From the IMG/VR virus record IMGVR_UViG_3300023240_000135, positions 1-21,902 of that record: a DNA stretch of 21,902 nt; one strand, 5' to 3'. This document shows positions 661 through 18,062 of this stretch, one piece after another (the stretch's first letter is position 1; each line of letters opens with the position of its first letter). The translations under genes were made by a program, and so were the position numbers. The notes under the pieces were generated by a model, which saw only the letters and a program-made list of their open reading frames with translations, did no database searches and was not told the origin of the DNA. Origin of the DNA: a virus.

Positions 661-2304
661 ATGAGTCAATTAAATTCTTTATTAGAAAGTGCTAATCCTT
701 ATAAGTCATTACAAAGTGATGCTGCAAGATTAGCCAATAAGTGGAGCAAGACAGGATTGTTAGAAGGTATTCCAAACGATACTGACAAGAACAATATGTC
801 TATGATCCTAGAAAATCAAGCTAAACAGCTTGTTGTAGAAACAAGTCAAACTGGAGGTCCTGCAGGAACATCAGGTACATTTACAGCTGGAACAGGTGCT
901 CAGTGGGCAGGTGTTGCTTTACCATTGGTAAGAAAAGTATTTGGTCAAATCGCAGCGAAAGAATTCGTTTCGGTTCAACCAATGAATCTTCCTTCTGGCC
1001 TAGTATTTTATCTAGATTTCCAATATGGTACTACAAAAGCTCCATTCACATCAGGTGATTCTATGTATGGTGATACTGATGGTAATACTCCATTTGGTAA
1101 TGGATCTACAGGTGGTGCTTATGGTGCGGGTCGTTTTGGATACTCTATCAACAACACACAATCTGCAGCTTACACTGTAGCTTCTGCTTCAGTTAACTGG
1201 TATACAGATCTACATGCTGATTCTTCAGTTTCCCAGTCTTATGTAGCGGGTGCCTCAAATCAAATTGTGAAGTTGTCAGTTCCTGTAGGATCTTTACCTA
1301 ACTATGATACAAGAGCAGTAAGAGCATTCTACCTTTCAGGTTCAGCTGCTGTCTTACCAGCTTCTACTACCCAATACCCACAGTTTACTACTGTAAGTGC
1401 TGATAGTACAACAATCGACTTCTTTGTCAGTAGTTCTGTAGTTAAGGGTGGAGCAGTTAAAGTTGAGTATTTACTAGAAACAAAAGACTTCCAAAGAGGT
1501 GATTTTGAAGATAGAAATAATAACTTAAACAACAACAACACACCAATCACAATCCCAGAAATCAACGTTCAAATGTCTTCTGAAGCCATTGTTGCTAAGA
1601 CACGTAAATTGAAAGCTGTTTGGACTCCTGAATTTGCTCAAGATCTTAACGCTTACCATAGTTTAGATGCTGAAGCTGAATTAACTTCTATCATGAGTGA
1701 GTATATCTCATTAGAAATTGATATGGAAATACTTGATATGTTGATCGAATCAGCTTCTGCTGGTACTGAATACTGGAGTGCACAAAACAACTTATCCATA
1801 GCATCAACGGGTGTTGTAAATAGTGATTTAGGTTTTTATAATTCTCAAGGCCAATGGTTCCAAACATTAGGAACTAAGATTCAAAAGTTAAGTAATGTTA
1901 TTCATCAGAAAACTCTTAGAGGTGGTGCTAATTTCTTAGTATGTTCTCCTTCAGTAGCTACTATTTTGGAATCAATTCCGGGATTTGCTAGTACTTCAGA
2001 TGGTGATGCTGCAAAAGCTTCATACGCATTTGGTGTACAGAAATCAGGTACTATTAATAGTAGATATACTGTTTATAAAAACCCTTATATGACTGAAAAT
2101 ACAATCCTTATGGGATTCAGAGGTGGTCAGTTCTTAGAAGCAGGTGCTGTATTTGCCCCATACATTCCTTTAATTATGACTCCATTGGTATACGATCCAG
2201 AAACATTTACTCCACGTAAAGGTTTACTTACTCGTTATGCTAAGAAAGTAGTTAGACCAGAATTTTATGCTAAAATTTTCGTAGAAGGTTTAAATACTCT
2301 ATAG
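661..2304 (+). CDS. 23: Major capsid protein (gp23-like)
   Basis: Forms the hexameric lattice of the icosahedral head (HK97 fold expected). At 547 aa it is close to T4 gp23 (521 aa). The N-terminal 60 residues are polar and helical and end near QAKQLVVE. This matches the gp23 delta region removed by the prohead protease; ILE at residues 49-51 fits the T4 (L/I)-X-E rule and VVE at 58-60 is a looser candidate. The central part contains a Ser/Thr/Gly-rich beta region (about 150-290). The C-terminal half carries conserved-looking capsid text such as RGGANFLVCSPSVATILE and TPRKGLLTRYAKKVVRPEFY. The ATG follows a long A-run (about 646-658) with no Shine-Dalgarno. It is preceded by the scaffold gene and followed by a strong terminator. 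Confidence 0.93.
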   Translation: MSQLNSLLESANPYKSLQSDAARLANKWSKTGLLEGIPNDTDKNNMSMILENQAKQLVVETSQTGGPAGTSGTFTAGTGAQWAGVALPLVRKVFGQIAAKEFVSVQPMNLPSGLVFYLDFQYGTTKAPFTSGDSMYGDTDGNTPFGNGSTGGAYGAGRFGYSINNTQSAAYTVASASVNWYTDLHADSSVSQSYVAGASNQIVKLSVPVGSLPNYDTRAVRAFYLSGSAAVLPASTTQYPQFTTVSADSTTIDFFVSSSVVKGGAVKVEYLLETKDFQRGDFEDRNNNLNNNNTPITIPEINVQMSSEAIVAKTRKLKAVWTPEFAQDLNAYHSLDAEAELTSIMSEYISLEIDMEILDMLIESASAGTEYWSAQNNLSIASTGVVNSDLGFYNSQGQWFQTLGTKIQKLSNVIHQKTLRGGANFLVCSPSVATILESIPGFASTSDGDAAKASYAFGVQKSGTINSRYTVYKNPYMTENTILMGFRGGQFLEAGAVFAPYIPLIMTPLVYDPETFTPRKGLLTRYAKKVVRPEFYAKIFVEGLNTL

Positions 2305-2335
2305 TATTAATTAACTACAAAGGTTAAATAATAAG

Positions 2336-2362
2336 AAGGGACGCATTTTGCGTCCCTTTTTT
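2336..2362 (+). terminator. Rho-independent terminator after the capsid gene
   Basis: Perfect 8-bp stem GGGACGCA / TGCGTCCC (2338-2345 and 2349-2356) with a TTT loop, followed by six T residues; two flanking A-T pairs can extend it. It lies about 30 nt past the capsid stop codon and should end the highly expressed capsid transcript. Confidence 0.93.
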
Positions 2363-2555
2363 ATAGGGGTATATATTATACTTTATTATTATTAATTAGT
2401 GGGTTAACGCTATATATAAACGTATAAATTCCACAAGTACCACACATTGATACCACATCATGCTATTTACATACACCTAAAGATTATACGCTTACATACA
2501 AGGTACTTCCGGAAGTAGTGGGAGAGTCAAAACGTAATTATAAAGCATATATATT
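2363..2555. other. Gene-free interval between two terminators
   Basis: I see no credible ORF or tRNA in these ~190 nt. They contain AT-rich, promoter-like stretches (TATATATAAACGTATAAATT near 2411-2430), two TACCACA words 13 nt apart (2438 and 2451), and a 14-bp palindrome. A second terminator follows at once, although no coding gene lies between the two. This suggests either a short non-coding transcript or a spacer insulating the capsid transcript from the neck genes. Confidence 0.5.
2504..2517. repeat. 14-bp perfect palindrome
   Basis: TACTTCCGGAAGTA is its own reverse complement. It is GC-richer than its surroundings and stands alone in the non-coding interval. It could be a protein binding site or a small RNA hairpin; the sequence alone does not say which. 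Confidence 0.6.
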
Positions 2556-2586
2556 GGGGTGATTTCTAAACGGAACCACCCCTTTT
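2556..2586 (+). terminator. Second terminator-like hairpin
   Basis: GGGGTG (2556-2561) pairs with CACCCC (2577-2582). After one A-C mismatch an inner TTTC/GGAA stem continues to a five-base loop. TTTT follows, merging into the promoter-like word of the next gene. Confidence 0.72.
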
Positions 2587-2589
2587 GTA

Positions 2590-2598
2590 TATTTATAA
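2590..2598 (+). promoter_or_regulatory. Late-promoter-like box TATTTATAA
   Basis: One copy of a word repeated before many genes here. It ends 10 nt before the ATG at 2609. If it is a -10 element, transcription would start only a few bases before the start codon. Confidence 0.55.
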
Positions 2599-2608
2599 CA
2601 AAAATAAC

Positions 2609-3070
2609 ATGGCATCTATATTAACCCCAACAGTATTCCAAATCAAAATTAAGGAAGAACATATAGTTAAGGGTATTAAAACACTTAATGAAACATATTT
2701 CTCAGTAAATAATGTAACTAATGTGGATAGAAGAATTATAACAATTCCCCCTACAACATCTATTGACTTGATAAATGTAAACGGTGTAAACCCAGGCGCA
2801 GGAACATTTCCTTCAAGTAGTATAAAATACGTTAGAATTTCTAATCTAGATACATCATCATCTCTATCAGTATCATTCACATCATCTGATGTAGGTAGTG
2901 GTCCTTCTTATTGGAGTATGGAATGTCTTCCAACTTCATCATTGATGTTTTCAAGTACCAAAGTTACAGGAAGTAATTTTAATGGGACATTTAATAATGA
3001 TATAACAAACATTGCTGTATATTCTCTAAGTTCAAGTTTAGATGTAGAGTATGTAGTAGTTAATGCATAA
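2609..3070 (+). CDS. Small beta-rich putative virion protein, function unknown
   Basis: A 153-residue protein with no recognised enzymatic motif, no signal peptide and no membrane segment. It is rich in S, T, V and I in alternating patterns (for example SSSIKYVRISNLDTSSSLSV), which suggests a beta-sandwich. Its place between capsid and neck genes fits a head decoration or neck-associated component, but that is inference. Start choice: a TTG at 2585 would add eight residues (MYIYNKNN), but that stretch is the end of the terminator plus the promoter-like box, so ATG 2609 (MASILTPTVF) is preferred. The upstream sequence is A-rich without Shine-Dalgarno. The next gene follows after 11 nt. Confidence 0.75.
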   Translation: MASILTPTVFQIKIKEEHIVKGIKTLNETYFSVNNVTNVDRRIITIPPTTSIDLINVNGVNPGAGTFPSSSIKYVRISNLDTSSSLSVSFTSSDVGSGPSYWSMECLPTSSLMFSSTKVTGSNFNGTFNNDITNIAVYSLSSSLDVEYVVVNA

Positions 3071-3081
3071 CATATAAAAAT

Positions 3082-4239
3082 ATGGCAAATATACAAATAT
3101 ACCCAGGATCTAGTTCATTTACCCCAGGTGATACACCTTTTGGGTTTTATGATAATGATTTAGAATTTCAAGCTGATGCCAATAAATTTACAACTTTTGC
3201 CTCACGTCGTCTAGGTTACCCTATTGTAGATGTTGAACTTCAAGACCTAAATTTTTATGCAGCCTTTGAAGAAGCAGTTACAGTTTATGGAAATGAGATA
3301 TATGCTTATAAAATTAGAGAAAATTATTTAACTTTAGAAGGAGCAGATAGTACTACTGATGTTAATAATGTTATAATTACCCCCAACTTAGGTAGAATTA
3401 TAGCAATATCAAAACAGTATGGGGTTGAAGCGGGAACGGGTGGTAATGTAGATTGGCATAAAGGTTCAATTGCATTGACAGAATCTATTCAAGATTATAA
3501 TTTAGAGGAATGGGCTGAAGTAAACATCCCACATTATAGAGGTCATGATATAGAAATTATGAGAGTATTTTACGAAGCACCACCTGCTATGTTAAGATTT
3601 TTTGACCCCTATGCAGGTACAGGAACAGGTACCATGGATATGATGGATTCATTTGGTTGGGAAAACTACTCACCAGCCGGGGTAAATTTCATGTTAATGC
3701 CTATTAATTATGATTTACAAGTAATTCAACAAATAGAATTTAATGATATGATTAGAAGAGCTAATTACTCTTTTGAAATGCATAACAACCATTTAAAAAT
3801 ATTCCCAATACCCGATGGAAGACCTACTTCTATGAAATTTGAATATATATTAAACTCAGAAAGATCATCAGCTTCGTTTGAAAATGGAAACGGGAGAATA
3901 ACCCAAATATCAGAGGTTCCCTATACTAATCCAGTTTATAGTAAAATTAACTCTATAGGTAGAAGTTGGATATTTGAATATGCTTTGGCACTGTGTAAAG
4001 AAATGTTAGGATATGTTCGTGGTAAATATCAATCAGTACCAATCCCTGGGGATACAGTTACTTTAAATCAAGCAGATTTAATATCAGCTGCAACTAATGA
4101 AAAAGAAAAACTAATTGATAGGTTAAGAACTTATCTTGATGATACTTCAAGGGAAAAGTTATTAGAAAGAAGAGCTACTGAGGGTGACTTTTTAGAAAAA
4201 GAACTAAGCAAAAGTCCATTTCCAATTTATATAGGATAA
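3082..4239 (+). CDS. 13: Neck protein (gp13-like head completion)
   Basis: Likely builds the neck connecting the portal to the tail after DNA packaging. At 385 aa it is somewhat longer than T4 gp13 (about 309). The N-terminal third carries the most family-like text: FGFYDNDLEFQADANKF, then ASRRLGYPIVDVELQDLNFY and AAFEEAVTVYGNEIYAYK, where a helical segment would pack against the portal. A middle beta region follows, and a basic helical C-terminus (NEKEKLIDRLRTYLDDTSRE). Identity is supported by its immediate neighbours, the gp14-like and gp15-like genes, in T4 order; the next gene starts 2 nt after this stop. The family call comes from remembered motif similarity and synteny, not an alignment. 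Confidence 0.72.
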   Translation: MANIQIYPGSSSFTPGDTPFGFYDNDLEFQADANKFTTFASRRLGYPIVDVELQDLNFYAAFEEAVTVYGNEIYAYKIRENYLTLEGADSTTDVNNVIITPNLGRIIAISKQYGVEAGTGGNVDWHKGSIALTESIQDYNLEEWAEVNIPHYRGHDIEIMRVFYEAPPAMLRFFDPYAGTGTGTMDMMDSFGWENYSPAGVNFMLMPINYDLQVIQQIEFNDMIRRANYSFEMHNNHLKIFPIPDGRPTSMKFEYILNSERSSASFENGNGRITQISEVPYTNPVYSKINSIGRSWIFEYALALCKEMLGYVRGKYQSVPIPGDTVTLNQADLISAATNEKEKLIDRLRTYLDDTSREKLLERRATEGDFLEKELSKSPFPIYIG

Positions 4240-4241
4240 TT

Positions 4242-4826
4242 ATGTGCGCACTTTTTGGATCTGCAAGAGATATAAGTTTATTTAGACACGTTAATCGAGA
4301 ATTGATGGCTGATATCATCACCCAACAATGTTCTTTTTACAAATATAAATTAGAAGAAACAAAAGTAAATATTTACGGAGAGGCCTCTGGGGGGAAATAT
4401 TATATGGGTCCTGTATTATTAAACTGTTTAATAGAAAGAAAAGCCCAAGAATACCCAGAAACCGATTTAGGTACAGATTTTACTTGGGGGGCTACATTTA
4501 AGTTCTTAAGAGATGATTTACTAGATAAGATGGAGGATTTTAACAAGAATTTCAACCCTACAAACTATCAATATGGGGCCAATTTGGTTCCTGAAGTGGG
4601 TGATATAATAATGTATCAAGATGGATATTATGAAATAGATAATACTAACGCTAACCAATATTTTATGGGGAAAAACCCAGATTACCCAAATAATACCAAC
4701 CCACTCAATCCAGGGTTAGAAGATTTTGGGTCTTCAATTTCAATTATTGTTGAAACACATTATGTACCTAGTGATAAAGTAGGAATTACACAATCAAGAT
4801 TATATACTGGAAACAATGGCGAATAA
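4242..4826 (+). CDS. 14: Neck protein (gp14-like)
   Basis: Second neck/head-completion protein, expected to form a ring under gp13 where tails attach. At 194 aa it is shorter than T4 gp14 (256 aa). The N-terminus has the characteristic FRHVNRELMADIITQQ, followed by YKYKLEETKVNIYGEASG and GPVLLNCLIERK. The second half includes EVGDIIMYQDGYYEIDN and an IIVETHYVPSDKVGI strand near the end. A possible weak Shine-Dalgarno (AGGA) lies a few bases before the ATG, exceptional in this window. The gene begins 2 nt after gp13 and its last 11 nt overlap the gp15-like start, so translational coupling is likely. Confidence 0.82.
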   Translation: MCALFGSARDISLFRHVNRELMADIITQQCSFYKYKLEETKVNIYGEASGGKYYMGPVLLNCLIERKAQEYPETDLGTDFTWGATFKFLRDDLLDKMEDFNKNFNPTNYQYGANLVPEVGDIIMYQDGYYEIDNTNANQYFMGKNPDYPNNTNPLNPGLEDFGSSISIIVETHYVPSDKVGITQSRLYTGNNGE

Positions 4827-5775
4827 AGGAAAAACACCAATACCAAAGACCCAAAGAGAAATAAGTATCTCACAACAGCAACCCTATAATCCACCTTCGG
4901 GTGCCTCTGGGTTTGCTGAAACTGGGAACCCAAACCAAACACCAGAATTTAATAGGGGGGGGCAGGTATCCTTTAGAGATGACACTACAAAACCCTTTAC
5001 CTTAGGTTTTAAAGAAATTGATGAAGCTATAGCTTATTATATGAACAATGTCATTAAACCTACAGTCCAGCAAAATGGTGTGGTACAAAGAGTACCATTT
5101 ATTTACGGTTCACCTGAAAGGTGGAAACAAGTTCAAAAGGATGGTTATTATAGGGATAAAAAAGGTAAAATTATGTTACCCTTAATTACATTTAAACGTA
5201 ATAATGTTGAGAAGATAAGAAGTGTCTCCAATAAATTAGATGCTAATCATCCTAATAATGTGGCCGTTTGGCAAAAGAGTTATTCTGTAAATAATGCTTA
5301 TGATAATTTCGGAATATTAAATAATAGACGCCCTGAAAAAGTAAACTACGCAGTAGTAGTCCCCGATTATGTTAATATAACTTATGATTTTATAGTTTCT
5401 ACATATTACGTAGAACAATTAAATAAGATAATTGAAGCTATTAACTATGCCTCTGATTCGTATTGGGGAGATCCCGAAAGATTTAAATTTAGAGCTAGAA
5501 TTGATAACTTCTCAACACCCGTAGAACTTCCATCACAAGGGGAGAGAGTAGTTAAATCAACTTTTACCTTAAAATTGTATGGGTATCTAGTTCCTGATAA
5601 TATACAAAAACAACTTTCATCATTGAAAAGATTTTCAAGTAAAACAAAAATTATTTTCAATATGGAAACTACTTCAAATTTAGAGGGTATAAATAATACA
5701 TTATCCCACTCAACCACAACAACCCAAATTAAAAGCGATGATAGTTTTACAGATTTTATCGAACCATCTTTATAA
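4816..5775 (+). CDS. 15: Tail terminator / proximal sheath stabiliser (gp15-like)
   Basis: In T4, gp15 caps the tail tube and sheath and joins the tail to the head. At 319 aa this is longer than T4 gp15 (272 aa), mainly because of an N-terminal disordered, Q/P/G/S-rich extension of about 60 residues. Landmarks line up with T4 gp15 as I remember it: VPFIYGSPERW corresponds to the VPITYASKEHF region. The section NYAVVVPDYVNITYDFIVST, then EQLNKIIEAINYASDSYWG, matches the ligand-free beta-alpha core. TFTLKLYGYLVPD near residue 250 matches the T4 strand ending in GWMYP. It overlaps the gp14 gene by 11 nt and is the last gene before the fibre. Confidence 0.75.
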   Translation: MANKGKTPIPKTQREISISQQQPYNPPSGASGFAETGNPNQTPEFNRGGQVSFRDDTTKPFTLGFKEIDEAIAYYMNNVIKPTVQQNGVVQRVPFIYGSPERWKQVQKDGYYRDKKGKIMLPLITFKRNNVEKIRSVSNKLDANHPNNVAVWQKSYSVNNAYDNFGILNNRRPEKVNYAVVVPDYVNITYDFIVSTYYVEQLNKIIEAINYASDSYWGDPERFKFRARIDNFSTPVELPSQGERVVKSTFTLKLYGYLVPDNIQKQLSSLKRFSSKTKIIFNMETTSNLEGINNTLSHSTTTTQIKSDDSFTDFIEPSL

Positions 5776-5790
5776 TATAAGGTTTTATAA

Positions 5791-5799
5791 TATTTATAA
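5791..5799 (+). promoter_or_regulatory. Late-promoter-like box TATTTATAA before the fibre gene
   Basis: Exact copy of the box at 2590, with the same 10-nt distance to the ATG. The following AAACAAAA is also shared with the copy at 13957. Confidence 0.6.
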
Positions 5800-5809
5800 A
5801 CAAAACTAG

Positions 5810-8800
5810 ATGGGGATTATATTAAGACAAGATAAAGGCTCAGAATTAACCTTTACGGATGTAGATGGCAATTTCCAATCACTCTACTACTCTAGCTCTC
5901 TGGATGGATCTATTCTTACATTCCATTTCCCCAGTAGTAGTGTTACCCATAGTGTAGAGATAGGAGAAACAGGATTCCCATTCACAGGATCAGCCCAAAT
6001 CACAGGATCATATGGTGGGGGTTTTGCTGTAACAGGTAGCAGTACATTTGATATAAGTGGTAACGGTGATGAGTTTTCAATAAAATCAGCACCTATTCAA
6101 GATTTTCCATTTTTATTAACATATGCTACGGGATCAGGTAAAATAGGATACGTTAAAATATCAAGTGGAACTAGTGGTACAGCGAGTACATCAGGTCGAA
6201 GCCTTACATCTGGTACATCTGGTACATCGGGTGTAGCAGGATCCACAGGTGAATCTGGCACAACTGGTGAGGGTGGCACTTCAGGAGCAACCGGTACTTC
6301 AGGTACTTCAGGTACAACGGGATCAAAGGGTACATCAGGATTAACACTTGGTACTTCAGGTACCTCAGGTGTAGGTGGCACTTCAGGTACCTCTGGTTTA
6401 TCAGGTACAAGTGGGTTAAGCTCTTCATCAGGAACAAACGGTTCCTCAGGTACAGTAGGTTCTTCAGGAAACGCAGGACAATCAGGCTTAAGTAATACAG
6501 CGGGTACATCTGGAACATCTGGAACATCTGGAGTCGATAGTACTTCAGGGGAAGCAGGTACTGCTGGTTCATCTAACATATCAAATACTTCCGGAACCTC
6601 CGGATCAAATGGTACCTCAGGCTCAAGCGGTACAAATGGTACTTCAGGTGAAGTAGGCTCAAACGGAAATGCAGGGCAATCAGGTTTAAGCAATACAACA
6701 GGAACCTCAGGCTCAAGTGGCTCAAATGGTTCTTCAGGAGAAGCAGGTGCAAGTGCCTTAAGCTCTTCCTCAGGCTCAAGCGGTACAAATGGTTCTTCAG
6801 GTGCAACAGGCTCGAACGGAAATGCAGGTCAATCAGGTTTAAGTAATACAACAGGAACCTCAGGCTCTTCAGGAGTAGATGGTACTTCAGGAGAAGCAGG
6901 AACATCAGGTTCATCAAATACCTCAGGTTCCTCAGGTACAGTGGGTTCATCAGGTGAGAGTGGTACTTCAGGATCAACCGGTAGTTCAGGTACTTCAGGT
7001 GCAACAGGCTCAAACGGGAATGCAGGTCAATCAGGTTTAAGTAATACAACAGGAACCTCAGGCTCTTCAGGAGTAGATGGTACTTCAGGAGAAGCAGGTG
7101 CAAGTGCTCTAAGTAATAGTAGCGGTTCAAGCGGTACAAATGGTACTTCAGGTGCAACAGGCTCAAACGGGAATGCAGGTCAATCAGGTTTAAGTAATAC
7201 AACAGGAACCTCAGGCTCTTCAGGAGTAGATGGTACTTCAGGAGAAGCAGGTGCAAGTGCTCTAAGTAATAGTAGCGGTTCAACAGGTTCAAATGGTACT
7301 TCAGGAGAGGCCGGAGAAGCAGGGGCAAGTGCCCTAAGTTCAACCTCAGGCTCAAGCGGTACAAACGGTTCTTCAGGAGAGGTAGGAGAAGCAGGTGCAA
7401 GTGCTCTAAGTTCAACCTCAGGCTCAAGTGGCTCAAATGGTTCTTCAGGAGAGGTAGGAGAAGCAGGTGCAAGTGCTCTAAGTGCAACCTCAGGCTCAAG
7501 TGGCTCAAATGGTACTTCAGGTGCAACAGGCTCAAACGGAAATGCAGGTCAATCAGGCTTAAGCAATACAACAGGAACCTCAGGCTCTTCAGGAGTAGAT
7601 GGTACTTCAGGAGAAGCAGGTGCAAGTGCCTTGAGTAATAGTAGCGGATCAACAGGTTCAAATGGTACTTCAGGAGAGGCCGGAGAAGCAGGGGCAAGTG
7701 CCCTAAGTTCAACCTCAGGCTCAAGCGGTACAAATGGTACTTCAGGAGAGGTAGGAGAAGCAGGTGCAAGTGCCTTAAGTAATAGTAGTGGATCAACAGG
7801 CTCAAATGGTTCTTCAGGAGAGGTAGGAGAAGCAGGTGCAAGTGCTCTAAGTTCAACCTCAGGTTCAAGCGGTACAAACGGTTCTTCAGGAGAGGTAGGA
7901 GAAGCAGGGGCAAGTGCCTTAAGTAATAGTAGTGGATCAACAGGCTCAAGTGGTACTTCAGGTGAGGTAGGAGAAGCAGGGGCAAGTGCCTTAAGTAATA
8001 GTAGCGGATCAACAGGTTCAAGCGGTACTTCAGGTGCAACAGGCTCAAACGGAAATGCAGGTCAATCAGGCTTAAGCAATACAACAGGAACCTCAGGCTC
8101 TTCAGGAGTAGATGGTACTTCAGGAGAAGCAGGAACATCAGGTGCAAGTGCCTTAAGTAATAGTAGTGGATCAACAGGCTCAAGTGGTACTTCAGGTGAA
8201 GCAGGCGAAGCAGGGGCAAGTGCCTTAAGTTCAACCTCAGGCTCAAGTGGTACAAATGGTACTTCAGGAGAGGTAGGAGAAGCAGGTGCAAGTGCCTTAA
8301 GTAATAGTAGCGGATCAACAGGCTCAAGCGGTACTTCAGGTGAGGTAGGAGAAGCAGGTGCAAGTGCTCTAAGTTCAACCTCAGGTTCAAGCGGTACAAA
8401 TGGCACTTCAGGTGAAGTAGGTGAAGCAGGTGCAAGTGCCTTAAGTAATAGTAGTGGATCAACAGGCTCAAATGGTTCCTCAGGTGAGGTAGGCGAAGCA
8501 GGTGCAAGTGCTCTAAGTAATAGTAGTGGATCAACAGGCTCAAATGGTTCTTCAGGTGAGGTAGGAGAAGCAGGGGCAAGTGCCTTAAGTTCAACCTCAG
8601 GTTCAAGTGGTACAAATGGTACTTCCGGTGAAGTAGGTGAAGCAGGTGCAAGTGCCTTAAGTAATAGTAGTGGATCAACAGGCTCAAATGGTTCCTCAGG
8701 TGAAGTAGGTGAAGCAGGGGCAAGTGCCTTAAGTTCAACCTCAGGTTCAAGTGGCTCAAATGGTACTTCAGGTGAAGTAGGTGAAGCAGGTGTAAGTGCC

Positions 8801-9622
8801 TTAAGTAATAGTAGTGGATCAACAGGCTCAAATGGTTCTTCAGGTGAAGTAGGTGAAGCAGGTGCAAGTGCCTTAAGTAATAGTAGTGGATCAACAGGCT
8901 CAAGTGGTACTTCAGGTGAAGCAGGTGAAGCAGGTGAAGCAGGTGCAAGTGCCCTAAGTTCAACCTCAGGCTCAAGTGGTACTTCAGGAGAGGCCGGAGA
9001 AGCAGGGGCAAGTGCCTTAAGTAATAGTAGCGGATCAACAGGTTCAAATGGTTCTTCAGGTGAGGTAGGAGAAGCAGGGGCAAGTGCCTTAAGTTCAACC
9101 TCAGGTTCAAGTGGTACTTCAGGCTCTTCAGGAGTAGATGGAGCTTCAGGGGCAAGTGCCTTAAGCTCTTCTTCAGGCTCAAGTGGTACAAATGGTTCTT
9201 CAGGAGAAGTAGGAGAAGCAGGTGCAAGTGCCTTAAGCTCTTCCTCAGGCTCAAGTGGTACTTCAGGGGCTGAAGGTACATCTGGGGTAACTATAAGTGG
9301 GACAAGTGGTATTAGTGGAGGTGCTTATGTTACTACAAATGCTATGGTAAGAACAGTATCATCAACTTTAGTACAGTCATCGGATTTCACCACAATTGAT
9401 AATACTCTTGAAGAGGTTTACATAGATGGTAGAACCCGTACAACTACATTAAGAGTAGATGATGCAGCATCAGTATACGAACCAACTCGTGGAGATTACC
9501 CTGATAAAATAGTTGGAGGTACTGAAGCTTACGCTGATACCTCCATCTATTTAGGAAGACCCGATATTTGGCTTTTTATCAATGTAAATGGAACCAAATA
9601 CCAATTCCCAGGATATGATTAA
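5810..9622 (+). CDS. Giant proline-free Gly-X-Y (collagen-like) phage fibre protein
   Basis: A 1270-residue fibre with three parts. Residues 1-119 form a globular, probably virion-anchoring head (MGIILRQDKGSELTFTDVDG at the start). Residues about 120-1168 are a continuous triplet repeat with glycine at every third position, built almost only from G, S, T, N, A and E. Residues about 1170-1270 form a non-repetitive C-terminal tip (IYLGRPDIWLFINVNG near the end). Within the repeat, a 24-residue unit (GEV GEA GAS ALS NSS/STS GSx GxN GxS) recurs. SALS occurs about 28 times, and another block with GNAGQSGLSNT about seven. Two non-glycine triplets (ALS and NSS or STS) break the pattern in each unit. 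I see no proline in the repeat, unlike animal collagen. Triple helix or polyglycine-II bundle are both possible. Whether it sits on neck, tail or baseplate is unknown. Confidence 0.85.
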   Translation: MGIILRQDKGSELTFTDVDGNFQSLYYSSSLDGSILTFHFPSSSVTHSVEIGETGFPFTGSAQITGSYGGGFAVTGSSTFDISGNGDEFSIKSAPIQDFPFLLTYATGSGKIGYVKISSGTSGTASTSGRSLTSGTSGTSGVAGSTGESGTTGEGGTSGATGTSGTSGTTGSKGTSGLTLGTSGTSGVGGTSGTSGLSGTSGLSSSSGTNGSSGTVGSSGNAGQSGLSNTAGTSGTSGTSGVDSTSGEAGTAGSSNISNTSGTSGSNGTSGSSGTNGTSGEVGSNGNAGQSGLSNTTGTSGSSGSNGSSGEAGASALSSSSGSSGTNGSSGATGSNGNAGQSGLSNTTGTSGSSGVDGTSGEAGTSGSSNTSGSSGTVGSSGESGTSGSTGSSGTSGATGSNGNAGQSGLSNTTGTSGSSGVDGTSGEAGASALSNSSGSSGTNGTSGATGSNGNAGQSGLSNTTGTSGSSGVDGTSGEAGASALSNSSGSTGSNGTSGEAGEAGASALSSTSGSSGTNGSSGEVGEAGASALSSTSGSSGSNGSSGEVGEAGASALSATSGSSGSNGTSGATGSNGNAGQSGLSNTTGTSGSSGVDGTSGEAGASALSNSSGSTGSNGTSGEAGEAGASALSSTSGSSGTNGTSGEVGEAGASALSNSSGSTGSNGSSGEVGEAGASALSSTSGSSGTNGSSGEVGEAGASALSNSSGSTGSSGTSGEVGEAGASALSNSSGSTGSSGTSGATGSNGNAGQSGLSNTTGTSGSSGVDGTSGEAGTSGASALSNSSGSTGSSGTSGEAGEAGASALSSTSGSSGTNGTSGEVGEAGASALSNSSGSTGSSGTSGEVGEAGASALSSTSGSSGTNGTSGEVGEAGASALSNSSGSTGSNGSSGEVGEAGASALSNSSGSTGSNGSSGEVGEAGASALSSTSGSSGTNGTSGEVGEAGASALSNSSGSTGSNGSSGEVGEAGASALSSTSGSSGSNGTSGEVGEAGVSALSNSSGSTGSNGSSGEVGEAGASALSNSSGSTGSSGTSGEAGEAGEAGASALSSTSGSSGTSGEAGEAGASALSNSSGSTGSNGSSGEVGEAGASALSSTSGSSGTSGSSGVDGASGASALSSSSGSSGTNGSSGEVGEAGASALSSSSGSSGTSGAEGTSGVTISGTSGISGGAYVTTNAMVRTVSSTLVQSSDFTTIDNTLEEVYIDGRTRTTTLRVDDAASVYEPTRGDYPDKIVGGTEAYADTSIYLGRPDIWLFINVNGTKYQFPGYD
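6168..9300 (+). repeat. Triplet-coding minisatellite, 72-bp units
   Basis: DNA of the fibre repeat domain. From about 7230 to 9240 it is a tandem array of imperfect 72-bp units, all in the same reading phase. Units differ mainly by synonymous changes and T/S/N swaps. Before 7230 the repeats are shorter and more varied. Unit boundaries such as GCAAGTGCC(T/C)TAAGT recur nearly unchanged, which is what unequal recombination or slippage would produce. Confidence 0.92.
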
Positions 9623-9632
9623 ATAATATAAA

Positions 9633-9660
9633 AGGAAGAAGATCGAAAGATCTTCTTCTT
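9633..9660 (+). terminator. Hairpin after the fibre gene, GAAA tetraloop
   Basis: GAAGAAGATC (9635-9644) and GATCTTCTTC (9649-9658) form a perfect 10-bp stem closed by a GAAA (GNRA) tetraloop, extendable by a G-U and an A-T pair. The T-tract is weak (TT then GA), so it may terminate only partly or protect the 3' end of the fibre mRNA, while letting some transcription reach the glycosyltransferases. Confidence 0.75.
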
Positions 9661-9720
9661 GATATTTAGAATTTGGCTATTAGTATAATTGTTATTATAT
9701 TGAGGGATAAGAAAAATTAA

Positions 9721-12753: not shown

Positions 12754-13956
12754 ATGAAAGAAATTTTAATAAAAGAGTACAATAATTTAATCAAAGTACC
12801 TAAACCCCCCCTTATAAAACAAAACATTTTCAAATTTGACTTTATTAAAGGTTGTAAATTTGAAGTATTGGGTGATATAAAAGCAAAATATATTGTAAAC
12901 TTTATCAACCAGGATACGGGAGATATAGTTTATGAAAATACAATTACAAATAATATGTGGTGTAAGACCAATATTCAATATTTTATCAAGTATCTAATAA
13001 AGGTTAAAGATGAGAACACCGGGAAAGTTGTATTTGAACATTCATATAATGCCGAGGATCAAAAGATTTATATTCATTTATCTTCTAGTGCTTTAGGTGA
13101 TACATTATCATGGATTTCACATTTGGAAGAATTTAGGAAAATTCATAAATGTAATTTAACTGTATCAACATTTCATAATAAAATGTTTGATGAAAAATAC
13201 CCAAAAATTACTTTCATCAACCCCGGTGTAGAGTTATTTGGTTTATACGCTATGTATGAGATAGGATGGCATTATAGTGAAGGGGGAAAAATAGATTATA
13301 ATAAAAACCCTTTAAATTTTAGAAAAAACCCTTTATCAAAAACAGCAACTGATATTTTAGGTCTTAATTATAAAGAAATAAAACCAAAGCATACATTTAA
13401 AAATACGGGTTCAACCATTGATGGAAAATATGTTTGTATAGCCCCCCATGCTTCATCACACGCTAAATATTGGAACTATGAAGGTGGGTGGCAGAAAGTA
13501 ATAGATTACTTAAATAGTAAAGGTTATAAAGTTGTAATGATTACACAAGAACCTTTAAATGATAAATGGCATGATTCTAAATTAGGAAAAACATTAACTG
13601 GAGTTATTAATAAAACTGGAGATCACCCATTAAGTGAAAGAGCAAATGATTTAATGAATGCTAAAGCTTTTATAGGGTTAGGGAGTGGGTTAAGTTGGTT
13701 AAGTTGGGCTGTGGGGTGTCCAACAATCCTAATCTCAGGATTTAGTGAACCCTACAGTGAATTTGAGGGTTGTGAAAGGATATATACACCTGAAAACAAA
13801 TGTAGGGGTTGTTTTAATTTTACAAAATTAGATGCTGGTGATTGGGAGTGGTGTCCCGAACATAAAAATAGTTCAAGACATTTTGAATGTACTAAAACCA
13901 TCCTACCCCAAGTTGTAATTGATGCTATAGATCGTCAATTATTAAAATTTTCTTAA
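12754..13956 (+). CDS. TibC/BAHT-type O-heptosyltransferase-like protein
   Basis: A 400-residue protein closely resembling the autotransporter strand-loop-strand O-heptosyltransferase family, which attaches heptose to serines of repetitive adhesins. It has an N-terminal beta domain (residues about 25-105, including VNFINQDTGDIVYENTI). The GT9-like catalytic core follows: SSSALGDTLSWISHLEEF near residue 110, KTATDILGLNYKEIKP near 205 and GLGSGLSWLSWAVGCPTILI near 308. Four cysteines, C350, C353, C367 and C379 (C-X2-C-X13-C-X11-C), reproduce the family's metal ('iron finger') motif. No membrane segment is seen. True sugar donor is uncertain: ADP-heptose is the family's known donor, but phage members may use another. 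The stop codon abuts a promoter-like box for the next gene. Confidence 0.85.
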   Translation: MKEILIKEYNNLIKVPKPPLIKQNIFKFDFIKGCKFEVLGDIKAKYIVNFINQDTGDIVYENTITNNMWCKTNIQYFIKYLIKVKDENTGKVVFEHSYNAEDQKIYIHLSSSALGDTLSWISHLEEFRKIHKCNLTVSTFHNKMFDEKYPKITFINPGVELFGLYAMYEIGWHYSEGGKIDYNKNPLNFRKNPLSKTATDILGLNYKEIKPKHTFKNTGSTIDGKYVCIAPHASSHAKYWNYEGGWQKVIDYLNSKGYKVVMITQEPLNDKWHDSKLGKTLTGVINKTGDHPLSERANDLMNAKAFIGLGSGLSWLSWAVGCPTILISGFSEPYSEFEGCERIYTPENKCRGCFNFTKLDAGDWEWCPEHKNSSRHFECTKTILPQVVIDAIDRQLLKFS

Positions 13957-14034: not shown

Positions 14035-14679
14035 ATGGCTTTAAATTTTACAAACACAGGAGTAGTAACAGGACAACCCGTAGAAGCTTCTCAAATCTCC
14101 CAATCTTTTGATGCGTTTACAGGTGTAAATGCTTATAATATTAACCTTTCTGGTTCTTTATCTGTAACCGGTTCTATATCATCATCACTTGGTTTTGAAG
14201 GAGATTTAACAGGTGAAGCATCAACATCAGTTAGTTCATCATTCGCAGTTAGTTCATCATTCGCAGTTAGTTCATCATTAGCAGTTAGTTCATCATTCGC
14301 AGTTAGTTCATCATTAGCAGTTAGTTCATCATTCGCAGTTAGTTCATCATTAGCAGTAAGCTCATCATTAGCAGTAAGCTCATCATTAGCAGTAAGATCA
14401 ACCCAATTAGAATTTACAAACATAGCAGGAACATTAACATCAGAAGTCTTCCTTAAAGGTACTGCAGTATTTGAAAGTGGTGTGGCAACAGTAACTGATT
14501 TTTCACCACAGTTAGAAGGTAAAACCCTTGGTACTGATTGTTTTGTATTAACAACATACATGGGTACATCAATAAATGGGAGTCCAATTGGAGTAACACT
14601 AAATGAGAGTGGGCATTTAGTATTTAATGAAAAAGGAGAGCAAAGTGAAGAATTCATGTTTATGGTATTTTTCACATAA
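14035..14679 (+). CDS. Short fibre-like protein with SSS(F/L)AV hexapeptide repeats
   Basis: A 214-residue protein. Residues 1-60 (MALNFTNTGVVTGQPVEASQ at the start, then a SLSVTGSISSSLGF strand) look like an attachment segment. Residues about 66-120 hold nine tandem six-residue repeats SSS(F/L)AV, alternating F and L in the first seven. A beta-structured C-terminal head (about 125-214) ends in EFMFMVFFT. Six-residue repeats of this kind occur in trimeric phage fibres and similar beta-helical shafts; left-handed beta-helix is possible, not proven. No transmembrane segment. Lying between the glycosyltransferases and the sheath gene, it is probably a second tail or neck appendage, and its serine-rich shaft is another possible glycan acceptor. 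Confidence 0.72.
   Translation: MALNFTNTGVVTGQPVEASQISQSFDAFTGVNAYNINLSGSLSVTGSISSSLGFEGDLTGEASTSVSSSFAVSSSFAVSSSLAVSSSFAVSSSLAVSSSFAVSSSLAVSSSLAVSSSLAVRSTQLEFTNIAGTLTSEVFLKGTAVFESGVATVTDFSPQLEGKTLGTDCFVLTTYMGTSINGSPIGVTLNESGHLVFNEKGEQSEEFMFMVFFT
14230..14394 (+). repeat. 18-bp tandem repeat, nine copies
   Basis: Unit GTTAGTTCATCATT(C/A)GCA, encoding V-S-S-S-(F/L)-A. The first copies read GTT AGT; the last ones switch to GTA AGC, a synonymous drift suggesting a recently expanded array. Confidence 0.93.
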
Positions 14680-15002: not shown

Positions 15003-17291
15003 ATGGCAGAAACATTAATTTCCCCAGGAGTATTAGCAAGAGAGAATGATCAATCCCAAATAACTACCCAACCATTACAAGCAGGAGCTGCTTTAGTAGG
15101 TCCAACAGTGAAGGGGCAGGTAAATATTCCAAAACTAATTACTACCTACAGTGAATTCCAAGCTGATTTCGGAACAACTTTCGACAGTGGTTCGGATGAA
15201 TTTACATTCTTTACCTCAATATCGGCTTATAATTACTTTCAAAATGGGGGTACTTCATTACTAGTAACAAGAGTTGCTTCCGGTAGTTTCACCCCAGCTT
15301 CTTCTTCTACAATGTATAATGATGTAGAAAGCGGTGCTATAATTGCAGGAACTAGTTTATTAGGTTCATTTGCAAGTGGTGGACAAGGTGGAACAGCCGG
15401 AACATATTCAGATGTGGTATCAACTACTTCTGGTACAGGTACAGGTTTAAGTTTAGATGTAGTTACAAGTATAGATAATGGTAAACTATTAGCTACAGCT
15501 GATGCATTATTAGCAAGTGTTACAATTCAAATATCAGGTGGGGCTGCAGCAACTTATCCAGGTGTCGCTCTCTCAGGAGGAACTGAAGGAACAGGTGCTG
15601 TTGGTACTATTATATTATCAGATTCAACAACAATATCATCAATAACAGTTACAACCACAGGCTCAGGGTTTGTTGCTACTGAAACTATCACAATCCCCTC
15701 ATCATCTTTAGGTGCATCAGGTTCAGGTGGTACGGATGCAGTATTTACCTTAGTAGCCGGTGATTTATTTGTAGAACCTACATCAATATCAGCTCAAGAT
15801 GTAGGTGCAGGGTATGCTGTAGGTGATACAGTAACAATAGACTCAACCTTAATTGGAACACCAGCAGCTGATTTAGTATTAACATTAGTAGATGCTGATA
15901 TAGTAGATGCAAATGCTTTTACATTAGAAACAATTGGTCAAGGTATCATTATGAATAATGATGGTGCTTTAAATTCACAAGGTGCCTTAACTAATGGAAC
16001 TTCTGATAACATTAGATGGCAAATCACTAACCCATCAACGGGGTCAGGTACATTTAGTATAATTGTAAGACGAGGTAATGATACCACAAGAGCAAATTCA
16101 GTTCTAGAATCATTTAATAATGTATCGTTAGACCCAAAATCATCTAATTACATATCTAGAATAATTGGCGATCAAACCAAAGTAGTAAGAGGAGAAGGAA
16201 CATCAGATGTTTATTTACAAACATCAGGATCCTATCCAAACGCCTCAAGATATATAAGAGTAAGTAATGTAGCCTACAAAACACCAGATTATTTCGACAA
16301 TAGTGGAACTCCAAAATCACAGTATACAGCATATATACCAGTAGCAGCTTCAGGTACATTTGGGGGTGCATCCGGAACAATTTTAACTGGAACTGGAAAA
16401 TATTATAACCAAATTAATGGTACAGATACTCAAGGGTTAAAAGGTGATAATTATACAACTGCTTTTAATTTATTAGCAAATAAAGATGATTACAAGTATA
16501 ATTTAATATCTGCACCTGGTTTATACCAATCAGATTATAGTTCAGTATTAAATACTTTAACATCAAATACCGAAAATAGAGGTGACAACATTGTAATTTT
16601 AGATCTTGAAGCCTATAATTCTTCAATAACAGCAGTTACACAAACCGCAGCTAGTAAAGACACTTCATATGCCGCTTCATATTGGCCATGGTGTATGGTA
16701 ACAGACCCCGATTCAGGTCAAAATGTTTGGGTCCCAGCTGGAACACTAATGCCAGGAGTTTATGCTTCAAATGATAGAACAGCAGAAGCATGGTTTGCAC
16801 CTGCCGGTATTAATAGAGGTGGTTTAGGTAATGTAATCCAAGCAGAAAGAAAATTAACTCAAAATAATAGAGATACATTATATCAAGGTAAAGTTAACCC
16901 AATCGCAACATTCCCCGGAAGAGGAGTTGTAGTATTTGGTCAGAAAACATTACAAACTACAGCATCAGCTTTAGATAGAATAAATGTTAGAAGATTATTA
17001 ATTTCACTTAAAAATTATATCTCACAAGTAGCAGATAATTTAGTATTTGAACAAAATTCATCAGCAACTAGAAATATATTCTTAACTCAAGTAAACCCAT
17101 ATTTGGAATCAGTACAACAAAGACAGGGTTTATACGCATTTAAAGTCGTTATGAACGAGTCAAACAATGGTCCCGACATAGTTGATAGAAATGAATTAAG
17201 AGGCGCTATATACGTTCAACCAACAAAAACAGCAGAATTTATTTACCTAGATTTCAATATACTCCCAACAGGAGCTGAATTCCCTGCATAA
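15003..17291 (+). CDS. 18: Contractile tail sheath protein (gp18-like)
   Basis: Forms the outer contractile cylinder that drives the tube through the host envelope. At 762 aa it is longer than T4 gp18 (659). The N-terminus (MAETLISPGVLARENDQSQI) and LQAGAALVGPTVKGQVNIPK are classic sheath sequence. The C-terminal part (about 540-762) includes WAPAGINRGGLGNVIQAERK-like text (PAGINRGGL), GRGVVVFGQKTLQ, NVRRLLISLKNYI, and ends in the conserved FIYLDFNILPTGAEF. Residues about 120-305 look like an inserted surface domain containing two beta repeats (TGSGFVATETITI and VGAGYAVGDTVTID). It is followed by a strong terminator. Confidence 0.95.
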   Translation: MAETLISPGVLARENDQSQITTQPLQAGAALVGPTVKGQVNIPKLITTYSEFQADFGTTFDSGSDEFTFFTSISAYNYFQNGGTSLLVTRVASGSFTPASSSTMYNDVESGAIIAGTSLLGSFASGGQGGTAGTYSDVVSTTSGTGTGLSLDVVTSIDNGKLLATADALLASVTIQISGGAAATYPGVALSGGTEGTGAVGTIILSDSTTISSITVTTTGSGFVATETITIPSSSLGASGSGGTDAVFTLVAGDLFVEPTSISAQDVGAGYAVGDTVTIDSTLIGTPAADLVLTLVDADIVDANAFTLETIGQGIIMNNDGALNSQGALTNGTSDNIRWQITNPSTGSGTFSIIVRRGNDTTRANSVLESFNNVSLDPKSSNYISRIIGDQTKVVRGEGTSDVYLQTSGSYPNASRYIRVSNVAYKTPDYFDNSGTPKSQYTAYIPVAASGTFGGASGTILTGTGKYYNQINGTDTQGLKGDNYTTAFNLLANKDDYKYNLISAPGLYQSDYSSVLNTLTSNTENRGDNIVILDLEAYNSSITAVTQTAASKDTSYAASYWPWCMVTDPDSGQNVWVPAGTLMPGVYASNDRTAEAWFAPAGINRGGLGNVIQAERKLTQNNRDTLYQGKVNPIATFPGRGVVVFGQKTLQTTASALDRINVRRLLISLKNYISQVADNLVFEQNSSATRNIFLTQVNPYLESVQQRQGLYAFKVVMNESNNGPDIVDRNELRGAIYVQPTKTAEFIYLDFNILPTGAEFPA

Positions 17292-17372: not shown

Positions 17373-18062
17373 ATGAAAAAATGCTCTAAATGTAACCAAG
17401 ATAAGGAATATTCAAATTTCTATAAAAAATCATCTTCAAAAGATGGTTGTTCACATATATGCAAGGGGTGTAGAATAGAATATAACAACAATTCCAAAGA
17501 TTTAACCCAACGTTACTATAAAGAAAATAAGGAAAAGTATCAAGAAAGTAGTAAAAAATACTATAAAACCAACACAGAAAAAGTCAAAAACAATAGCACA
17601 AAATGGCAAAAACACAACCATGAAGAATATAAACTAATACAAAAAAAATGGCATAAAAATAACAGGGAATACCATAAAGTTTGGAGAAAAGATAAATGGG
17701 ATAATGACCCTAACTATAAATTAAGGATTTTATTAGGAAATAGATTAAATGAAGTCCTAAAGAAAAATAAAACATATAAAAGTAGTAACATTATTGCTCT
17801 TCTAGACTGTTCTTTAGGTGAATTAAAATCCCATCTCCAACAACTATTCAAAAAGGAAATGTCTTGGATCAACCATGGAATTATATGGGAAATAGACCAC
17901 ATCATACCCTGTGCTAATTTTAATTTGTCACTCGTTGAAGGACAAAAAAAATGTTTCCATTTTTCTAACCTCCAACCCTTATTTAAAACCACCAAAATAT
18001 CCAAAAGTTTTGGTTATGATAGTGAAATAGGAAATAGAAATAAGTCTGATAAATTTATGTGA
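17373..18062 (+). CDS. HNH endonuclease, probable free-standing homing endonuclease
   Basis: A 229-residue basic protein. An N-terminal zinc-finger-like module uses C4, C7, C30 and C33 (KCSKCNQDK and HICKGC). A long Lys/Asn/Tyr-rich helical linker follows (about 40-115), likely DNA-binding, with repeated Y-K-x-N-x-E/K patterns. The C-terminal nuclease has IWEIDHIIPCANF (D175-H176) and HFSNLQPLF (N199), a standard HNH metal and catalytic set. It sits between sheath and tube genes, which are normally adjacent in T4-like phages, and is flanked by terminator and promoter-like sequences. That fits a mobile, self-spreading gene inserted between essential genes. No intron or inteins are seen here. 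Confidence 0.88.
   Translation: MKKCSKCNQDKEYSNFYKKSSSKDGCSHICKGCRIEYNNNSKDLTQRYYKENKEKYQESSKKYYKTNTEKVKNNSTKWQKHNHEEYKLIQKKWHKNNREYHKVWRKDKWDNDPNYKLRILLGNRLNEVLKKNKTYKSSNIIALLDCSLGELKSHLQQLFKKEMSWINHGIIWEIDHIIPCANFNLSLVEGQKKCFHFSNLQPLFKTTKISKSFGYDSEIGNRNKSDKFM

Follow-up and report, generated by a model that had tools for sequence, protein, structure and literature searches.

What would a T4-like phage modify with a relative of TibC, a protein glycosyltransferase of bacterial adhesins, and does the gene encode a functional enzyme? The question is raised by a 21,902-nucleotide stretch of viral DNA, positions 1 to 21,902 of IMG/VR record IMGVR_UViG_3300023240_000135 (the window), in which an open reading frame (ORF) at 12754-13956 encodes a TibC-like protein of 400 amino acids (aa). 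We have extended an earlier note, which had identified the ORF as a heptosyltransferase with an intact four-cysteine motif, by examining the family, predicted fold and genomic partners of the protein. By homology, the product is a true TibC-family enzyme, its gene is associated with genes for serine-rich collagen-like proteins, and we consider it probable that it O-glycosylates serines of a trimeric collagen-like virion fibre. The combination of an intact TibC relative with linkage to long, serine-rich collagen-like proteins in many phages suggests that these phages probably provide the fibres they produce with a sugar coat.

A TibC-family enzyme encoded by a phage

The TibC-like protein matches profile positions 12-373 of 374 in the NCBIfam family TIGR04414 (hepto_Aah_TibC) with 314.7 bits (E 7.9e-94), relative to a curated cut-off of 200 bits. 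A phmmer search of PDB returned TibC (4rap; E 2e-59, residues 23-388, 34% identity), and only TibC (4rap, 4rb4) was matched up to E 1. Models of lipopolysaccharide (LPS) heptosyltransferases score far below their cut-offs (27 bits versus 185.3 for I and 21.4 versus 170.2 for III), as does RfaQ (37 bits versus 467). The relevant Pfam matches are Glyco_transf_9 and TibC_1st, the latter, at 23.2 bits, slightly below its cut-off of 27, and PHROGs contains no family for the protein. An AlphaFold2 model built from 36 viral sequences (mean predicted local distance difference test score (pLDDT) 86.4, predicted template-modelling score 0.84) ranked TibC chains first in Foldseek (E 3e-36, template-modelling score 0.83). 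Superposition on TibC with VIA-align gave a Z score of 40.2 and a root-mean-square deviation of 2.3 over 363 residues (model residues 23-400), compared with Z of ∼18-21 for other GT9 enzymes, with the N-terminal β-barrel and GT-B core present in the model as in 4rap. A hidden Markov model search against the autotransporter O-heptosyltransferase family and a structural overlay on TibC were among the checks suggested in the earlier note. The gene is under purifying selection, as the ratio of nonsynonymous to synonymous substitution rates (dN/dS) is 0.10-0.17 relative to five relatives.

In TibC, D110 is the catalytic base, K230, R286 and W305 contact the β-phosphate, adenine and heptose O4, respectively, Pro300 is the stereoselective residue, and C339, C342, C358 and C370 are ferric-ion ligands (PMC4358343). 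Alignment identifies an equivalent for each (Table 1), with T226 and P300 corresponding to S234 and G310. The residues quoted in the earlier note, including C350, C353, C367 and C379, ALGDTLSW (containing D116) and GSGLSWLSWAVG (310-321), are all found where it had placed them, and its description of a GT-B protein retaining the whole cysteine motif and catalytic site in a T4-like phage agrees with the profile search, model, alignment and gene neighbours. Among the 91 phage representatives obtained by clustering at 90% identity, D116, K238 and W315 are each invariant (91/91), position 234 is Ser or Thr in all 91, and each of the four cysteines is kept in 90, with R296 kept in 59 and replaced in 32. 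The iron-finger module is poorly modelled (block pLDDT 52-71), and its geometry in the phage protein therefore stays predicted.

Two kinds of unusual copies were encountered. IMG/VR contig G082 encodes a TibC-like protein lacking all four iron-finger cysteines while keeping the catalytic Asp (locus L603, 9318-11621, minus strand), with a Ser-rich collagen ORF 3.7 kb away; this copy constitutes a natural test of the need for the metal site. Tandem or paired TibC-like genes occur within single phages (L602, 4607-7758; L605, 8604-11387; also contig G096), and in L602 and L605 one copy is short (∼293-298 aa), matching from profile position ∼78-81 onwards and devoid of the N-terminal barrel.

The earlier note had also taken the cysteines as a hint of ring-like assembly, a proposal which we do not support. 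In TibC, the four-cysteine iron finger serves the back-to-back dimer and the ring contact is provided by a β-hairpin thumb carrying F265 and V266, mutation of either yielding an inactive dimer (PMC4358343). Neither alignment nor model reveals a counterpart of F265/V266 in the phage protein, in which WHDSKL takes the place of the two-residue hydrophobic tip and is predicted to form a helix (residues 271-277). This stretch is invariant in 36 close phage relatives and missing from divergent phage proteins, about a third of the phage relatives. A TibC-type ring contact is therefore not expected, and, checked against the TibC mutant data, a TibC-type ring was rejected. A dimer is expected for the phage protein, other modes of assembly being conceivable. 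Since both the thumb and an autotransporter partner were looked for and not found, the protein is not a bacterial autotransporter heptosyltransferase (BAHT) in the strict sense; NCBIfam scans of 11 window proteins detected no autotransporter or strand-loop-strand repeat models, the partner being instead collagen-like.

Association with serine-rich collagen-like proteins

The gene for this collagen-like partner lies directly upstream of an operon-like run consisting of two GT4-type glycosyltransferase genes, GT1a and GT1b, and the TibC-like gene, which is last. The run is tight, with the GT1a stop and GT1b start overlapping at 11805 and a 4-base gap separating the GT1b stop from the TibC-like gene. 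In the window protein, 1029 residues are in Gly-X-Y, Ser accounting for 31% and occupying 60% of Y positions. A collagen-like ORF was present in all 26 related viral loci having >6.1 kb of sequence upstream of the TibC-like gene, these being the loci brought in by protein search and including some near-duplicates. The association is maintained when gene order changes, as in three of the 26 (L071, L079, L081) the collagen-like ORF is downstream and on the other strand. In Microcystis phage Mel-JY01, a TibC-like gene with 44% identity is located at a different genome site, again with a Ser-rich collagen-like ORF just upstream. In the unannotated 735-kb megaphage LR756501.1, the TibC-like domain is fused to GT1b, and giant ORFs of 1665-3488 aa (∼103-124 kb and 400-423 kb) match Ser-type collagen. 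The earlier note had envisaged a repetitive substrate; this part of its proposal gains a candidate, three genes upstream and linked across many phages.

Collagen composition also varies with the cassette. Where the TibC-like gene is present, Ser makes up 14-51% of the Gly-X-Y tract and fills 30-95% of its Y positions, whereas a sheath-anchored sister clade without the cassette encodes, at the same locus, collagen in which Ser amounts to 1-8% and Gln or Thr occupies Y. The low-Ser clade falls on one branch of the sheath tree (Shimodaira-Hasegawa-like approximate likelihood ratio test support 100). The sheath-tree comparison, comprising one independent event only, was set aside as a statistical test in favour of pattern sampling. 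Viral contigs were drawn by collagen type only, using DNA patterns for six Gly-X-Ser (TCN) or six Gly-X-Gln triplets, and TIGR04414 was then searched over the whole contigs. The family was detected in 18/50 Ser-type versus 1/50 Gln-type contigs. In a strict subset chosen by a listed length of at least 20 kb alone (total 2.94 and 2.89 Mb for Ser and Gln, respectively), the enzyme was present in 14/42 versus 1/40 (Fisher p 0.0003, a figure that ignores relatedness among contigs); eight Ser-type contigs included without a listed length (L440, L441, L443, L448, L458, L445, L461 and L470), of which two had been recognized as positive beforehand, are outside this figure. A Ser-rich collagen ORF was located ≤10 kb from the TibC-like gene in 10 of the 16 neighbourhoods fetched. 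On the single Gln-type positive contig, no Ser-type collagen was found and the Gln-type ones start ∼46 kb from the gene.

Several observations, in addition to the disregard of relatedness in these counts, weigh against the proposed modification of collagen. A TibC-like gene was not seen on two-thirds of the Ser-collagen contigs sampled; with so many Ser-type contigs lacking it, the enzyme is not a universal partner of Ser-collagen. Similarly, no TibC-like gene was detected with the Ser-rich collagen of L167, L168, L251, L277 and L281, all of which are fragments. Conversely, no collagen signal was found in three divergent TibC-like-positive contigs (G046, G050, G051) or in the 636-kb megaphage LR756504, which carries a TibC-like gene. 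The change from Ser to Gln with loss of the cassette carries no statistical weight alone, as it is a single event on the sheath tree. TibC itself acts on β-helix loops, not on a collagen helix, and a complete donor pathway was not found in any phage examined.

Several relatives of the collagen-like protein carry at their C-terminus Peptidase_S74, a chaperone domain of the endosialidase type known from trimeric phage spikes and fibres, both with (L077, L079) and without (L132) a TibC-like enzyme. The C-terminus of the window protein differs and matches no family, and a fibre role is therefore proposed for it by analogy. In PP395634.1 (L090, 1-3052), a plus-strand collagen-like ORF reaching the start of the record lies opposite the first two genes annotated on the minus strand, and these two annotations are probably spurious.

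The remainder of the window is a T4-like structural cluster encoding the major head protein, head-tail adaptor, sheath and tube, with Flavobacterium phage immuto and Mel-JY01 as the closest isolates (Table 1). A phage-profile search of genome contigs recovered two loci only, both on phage-like contigs of metagenome-assembled genomes (MAGs; Flavobacteriales and Winogradskyella), and therefore indicates no chromosomal source and gives only a weak host hint. In relatives, the cassette additionally contains a NodU-type carbamoyltransferase, methyltransferases of the FkbM type, or fusions in which a methyltransferase-like or glycosyltransferase domain is joined at the N-terminus. The NodU-type gene is within the cassette in L079 (8392-10020) and L071 (8383-10020), the family having been tested for L079 and assigned in L071 by similar start, and suggests a carbamoylated phage glycan.

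Table 1. Coordinates of genes and residues in the window
Feature	Position	Strand	Basis or remark
Major capsid protein	661..2304	+	phrog_138 247 bits; 57% to Flavobacterium phage immuto
Collagen-like protein, 1270 aa, proposed substrate	5810..9622	+	Pfam Collagen PF01391 308.7 bits, 15 stretches
GT1a, GT4-type glycosyltransferase, long C-terminal extension, 694 aa	9721..11805	+	PF00534 46.1 bits; conserved cassette
GT1b, GT4-type glycosyltransferase, 314 aa	11805..12749	+	PF00534 27.5 bits; conserved cassette
TibC-like (TIGR04414, GT9/GT-B) protein glycosyltransferase, 400 aa	12754..13956	+	ATG to TAA
D116, equivalent of TibC catalytic base D110	13099..13101	+	Alignment to TibC
K238, equivalent of TibC K230 (β-phosphate contact)	13465..13467	+	Alignment to TibC
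WHDSKL (272-277), replacing hydrophobic tip of TibC β-hairpin thumb	13567..13584	+	Alignment, model
R296, equivalent of TibC R286 (adenine contact)	13639..13641	+	Alignment to TibC
W315, equivalent of TibC W305 (heptose O4 contact)	13696..13698	+	Alignment to TibC
Putative iron-finger module with C350, C353, C367, C379	13801..13890	+	Alignment to TibC C339/342/358/370
Ser-rich protein with SSSFAV/SSSLAV repeats, candidate for an alternative or additional substrate	14035..14679	+	Direct reading; no family match
Tail sheath, anchor for locus comparison	15003..17291	+	phrog_23 238.7 bits; 54% to immuto
Stand-alone endonuclease VII/HNH-like gene located between the sheath and tube genes, candidate homing endonuclease	17373-18062		

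Proposed modification, sugar donor and competing explanations

We propose that the TibC-family protein is a soluble GT-B O-glycosyltransferase with which the phage modifies its own virion fibre. The enzyme would transfer a first sugar, by family an adenosine diphosphate-activated heptose, onto serines, mostly at position Y of Gly-X-Y, in the collagen-like protein whose gene lies three genes upstream, consistent with the modification of serine, not threonine, by TibC (PMC4358343). The glycan would then be elongated or branched by GT1a and GT1b and, in relatives, capped by the carbamoyltransferase and FkbM methyltransferases. A trimeric collagen-like fibre of the tail or head would thereby acquire a sugar coat, possibly contributing stability, shielding or adhesion. 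More broadly, we lean slightly towards the existence of a dedicated cytosolic O-glycosylation system of tailed phages that builds glycans on serines of giant collagen-like virion fibres, extending from Bacteroidota-type T4-like myophages to 700-kb megaphages and comprising a TibC-like initiator, GT4 extenders and carbamoyl- and methyl-capping enzymes, with fibre Ser content co-evolving with the enzyme.

Heptose as the donor sugar is a family-based guess to which we assign a little better than an even chance. The donor-synthesis genes that the earlier note could not see are indeed absent from the window, and relatives provide partial hints only. The 636-kb megaphage LR756504.1 encodes the sedoheptulose-7-phosphate isomerase GmhA (∼430083-430652; L194 10084-10653) ∼27 kb from its TibC-like gene, with scores above cut-off for both PRK00414 (307.5 bits, cut-off 265) and TIGR00441 (251 bits). 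Four 158-164 kb relatives encode a short enzyme (134-135 aa) that resembles HldE-C most closely, scoring 102-113 bits where the cut-off is 181 (∼65 bits with the glycerol-3-phosphate cytidylyltransferase model), for example at L195 9404-9811 (minus strand) and L196 9064-9468 (plus strand). Other relatives have neither, including G001 (147 kb) and Mel-JY01, in which no homologue of GmhA or HldE-C was found. With respect to possible hosts, the Flavobacteriales MAG with a related contig contains a GmhA-like match just under cut-off and an HldE-C match over cut-off, and the Winogradskyella MAG contains neither. In L297, the stretch 1912-9671 next to a fused TibC-like gene appears to encode a small kinase, a HAD-type enzyme and a nucleotidyltransferase, together with two proteins resembling nucleotide-sugar epimerases/reductases, and may represent a donor pathway.

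The explanation that survives best alongside heptose transfer concerns this donor and is otherwise compatible with glycosylation of the fibre. The enzyme may have been retuned to another host nucleotide sugar, a tentative alternative which would account for the lack of GmhA and HldE-C homologues in G001 and Mel-JY01, the replacement of the adenine-contact Arg in 32/91 representatives and the presence of Gly (G310) at the position of the stereoselective Pro300. However, all four donor-contact positions are kept in the window protein (R296, W315, K238, and S234 for Thr), and the GmhA of one megaphage and the HldE-C-like enzymes of the four relatives argue for heptose.

It is unlikely that the TibC-like enzyme and the two glycosyltransferases instead modify host surface glycans (LPS/O-antigen) against superinfection, with the collagen linkage reflecting only a hypervariable host-recognition region. 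Glycosyltransferases of marine myophages, including those in pelagimyophage host-recognition regions, have been read as host-surface modifiers (PMC7029224), and GT1a and GT1b match lipid- and polysaccharide-type families in NCBIfam. Nevertheless, the TibC-like gene is on the protein-O-glycosyltransferase branch, as indicated by its TIGR04414 score in comparison with heptosyltransferase I, and the linkage runs to Ser-type, not Gln-type, collagen, the Gln-collagen clade having no cassette at the same locus. Slightly less likely again is an active serine glycosyltransferase that modifies some other virion protein, for instance the very Ser-rich repeat protein encoded immediately downstream, a gene with similar start being found between the TibC-like gene and sheath in several loci. 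However, a similar downstream gene is also present in loci that have no TibC-like gene (L251, L306), and the constant partner in Mel-JY01, L071, L079 and the 735-kb megaphage is collagen-like. It is highly improbable that the gene is decaying or is carried as an inactive passenger, given the low dN/dS, the catalytic residues kept in 91/91 and the conserved cassette, as nothing in the window favours it and only the cysteine-free L603 copy does so elsewhere.

Comparison with known glycosylation systems

If collagen-like fibres are the acceptors, a function would be provided for the Ser-rich collagen-like proteins common in environmental phages and for the adjoining glycosyltransferases, which are usually read as host-surface modifiers. 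Our literature search found no paper on phage TibC-like enzymes or glycosylated phage collagen, which does not prove that none exists. The closest relatives are TibC and AAH (BAHT; TIGR04414, 4rap), with which the phage protein shares whole-length homology, the layout of N-terminal barrel, GT-B core and iron finger, the catalytic Asp and donor-site residues, and a serine-rich repetitive partner encoded nearby. It differs in being encoded by a phage, in having no hydrophobic thumb tip and Gly310 for Pro300, in a partner that is collagen-like and not a β-helix autotransporter, and in the two GT4 enzymes of the gene run. TibC-type protein glycosylation would thus reach from bacterial adhesins to virions, on a different substrate fold and probably with a different assembly.

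Collagen-like tracts in trimeric phage fibre-type proteins are known from the E. coli O157 prophage tail fibre proteins EPclA and EPclB, of which recombinant EPclA made in E. coli was not glycosylated; the available text of PMC3368898 describes no linked glycosyltransferase for them. The Bacillus anthracis exosporium glycoprotein BclA is O-glycosylated and collagen-like, as cited in PMC3368898 and PMC9614988. BclA resembles the proposed phage fibre in its O-glycosylated collagen-like region and prokaryotic setting and differs in being a bacterial spore protein with other sugars. We know of no TibC-type enzyme for BclA.

The mimivirus lysyl hydroxylase/glucosyltransferase L230 glucosylates viral collagen (PMC4691112, PMC9614988). 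L230 is an unrelated enzyme of a eukaryotic virus that places glucose on hydroxylysine, and no lysyl hydroxylase domain was detected in the phage TibC-like protein with Pfam. The likeness is in the arrangement, a virus-encoded glycosyltransferase modifying the collagen-like proteins of the virus itself, as we propose for the phage. If the proposal is correct, prokaryotic viruses would possess a collagen-glycosylation system parallel to that of mimivirus.
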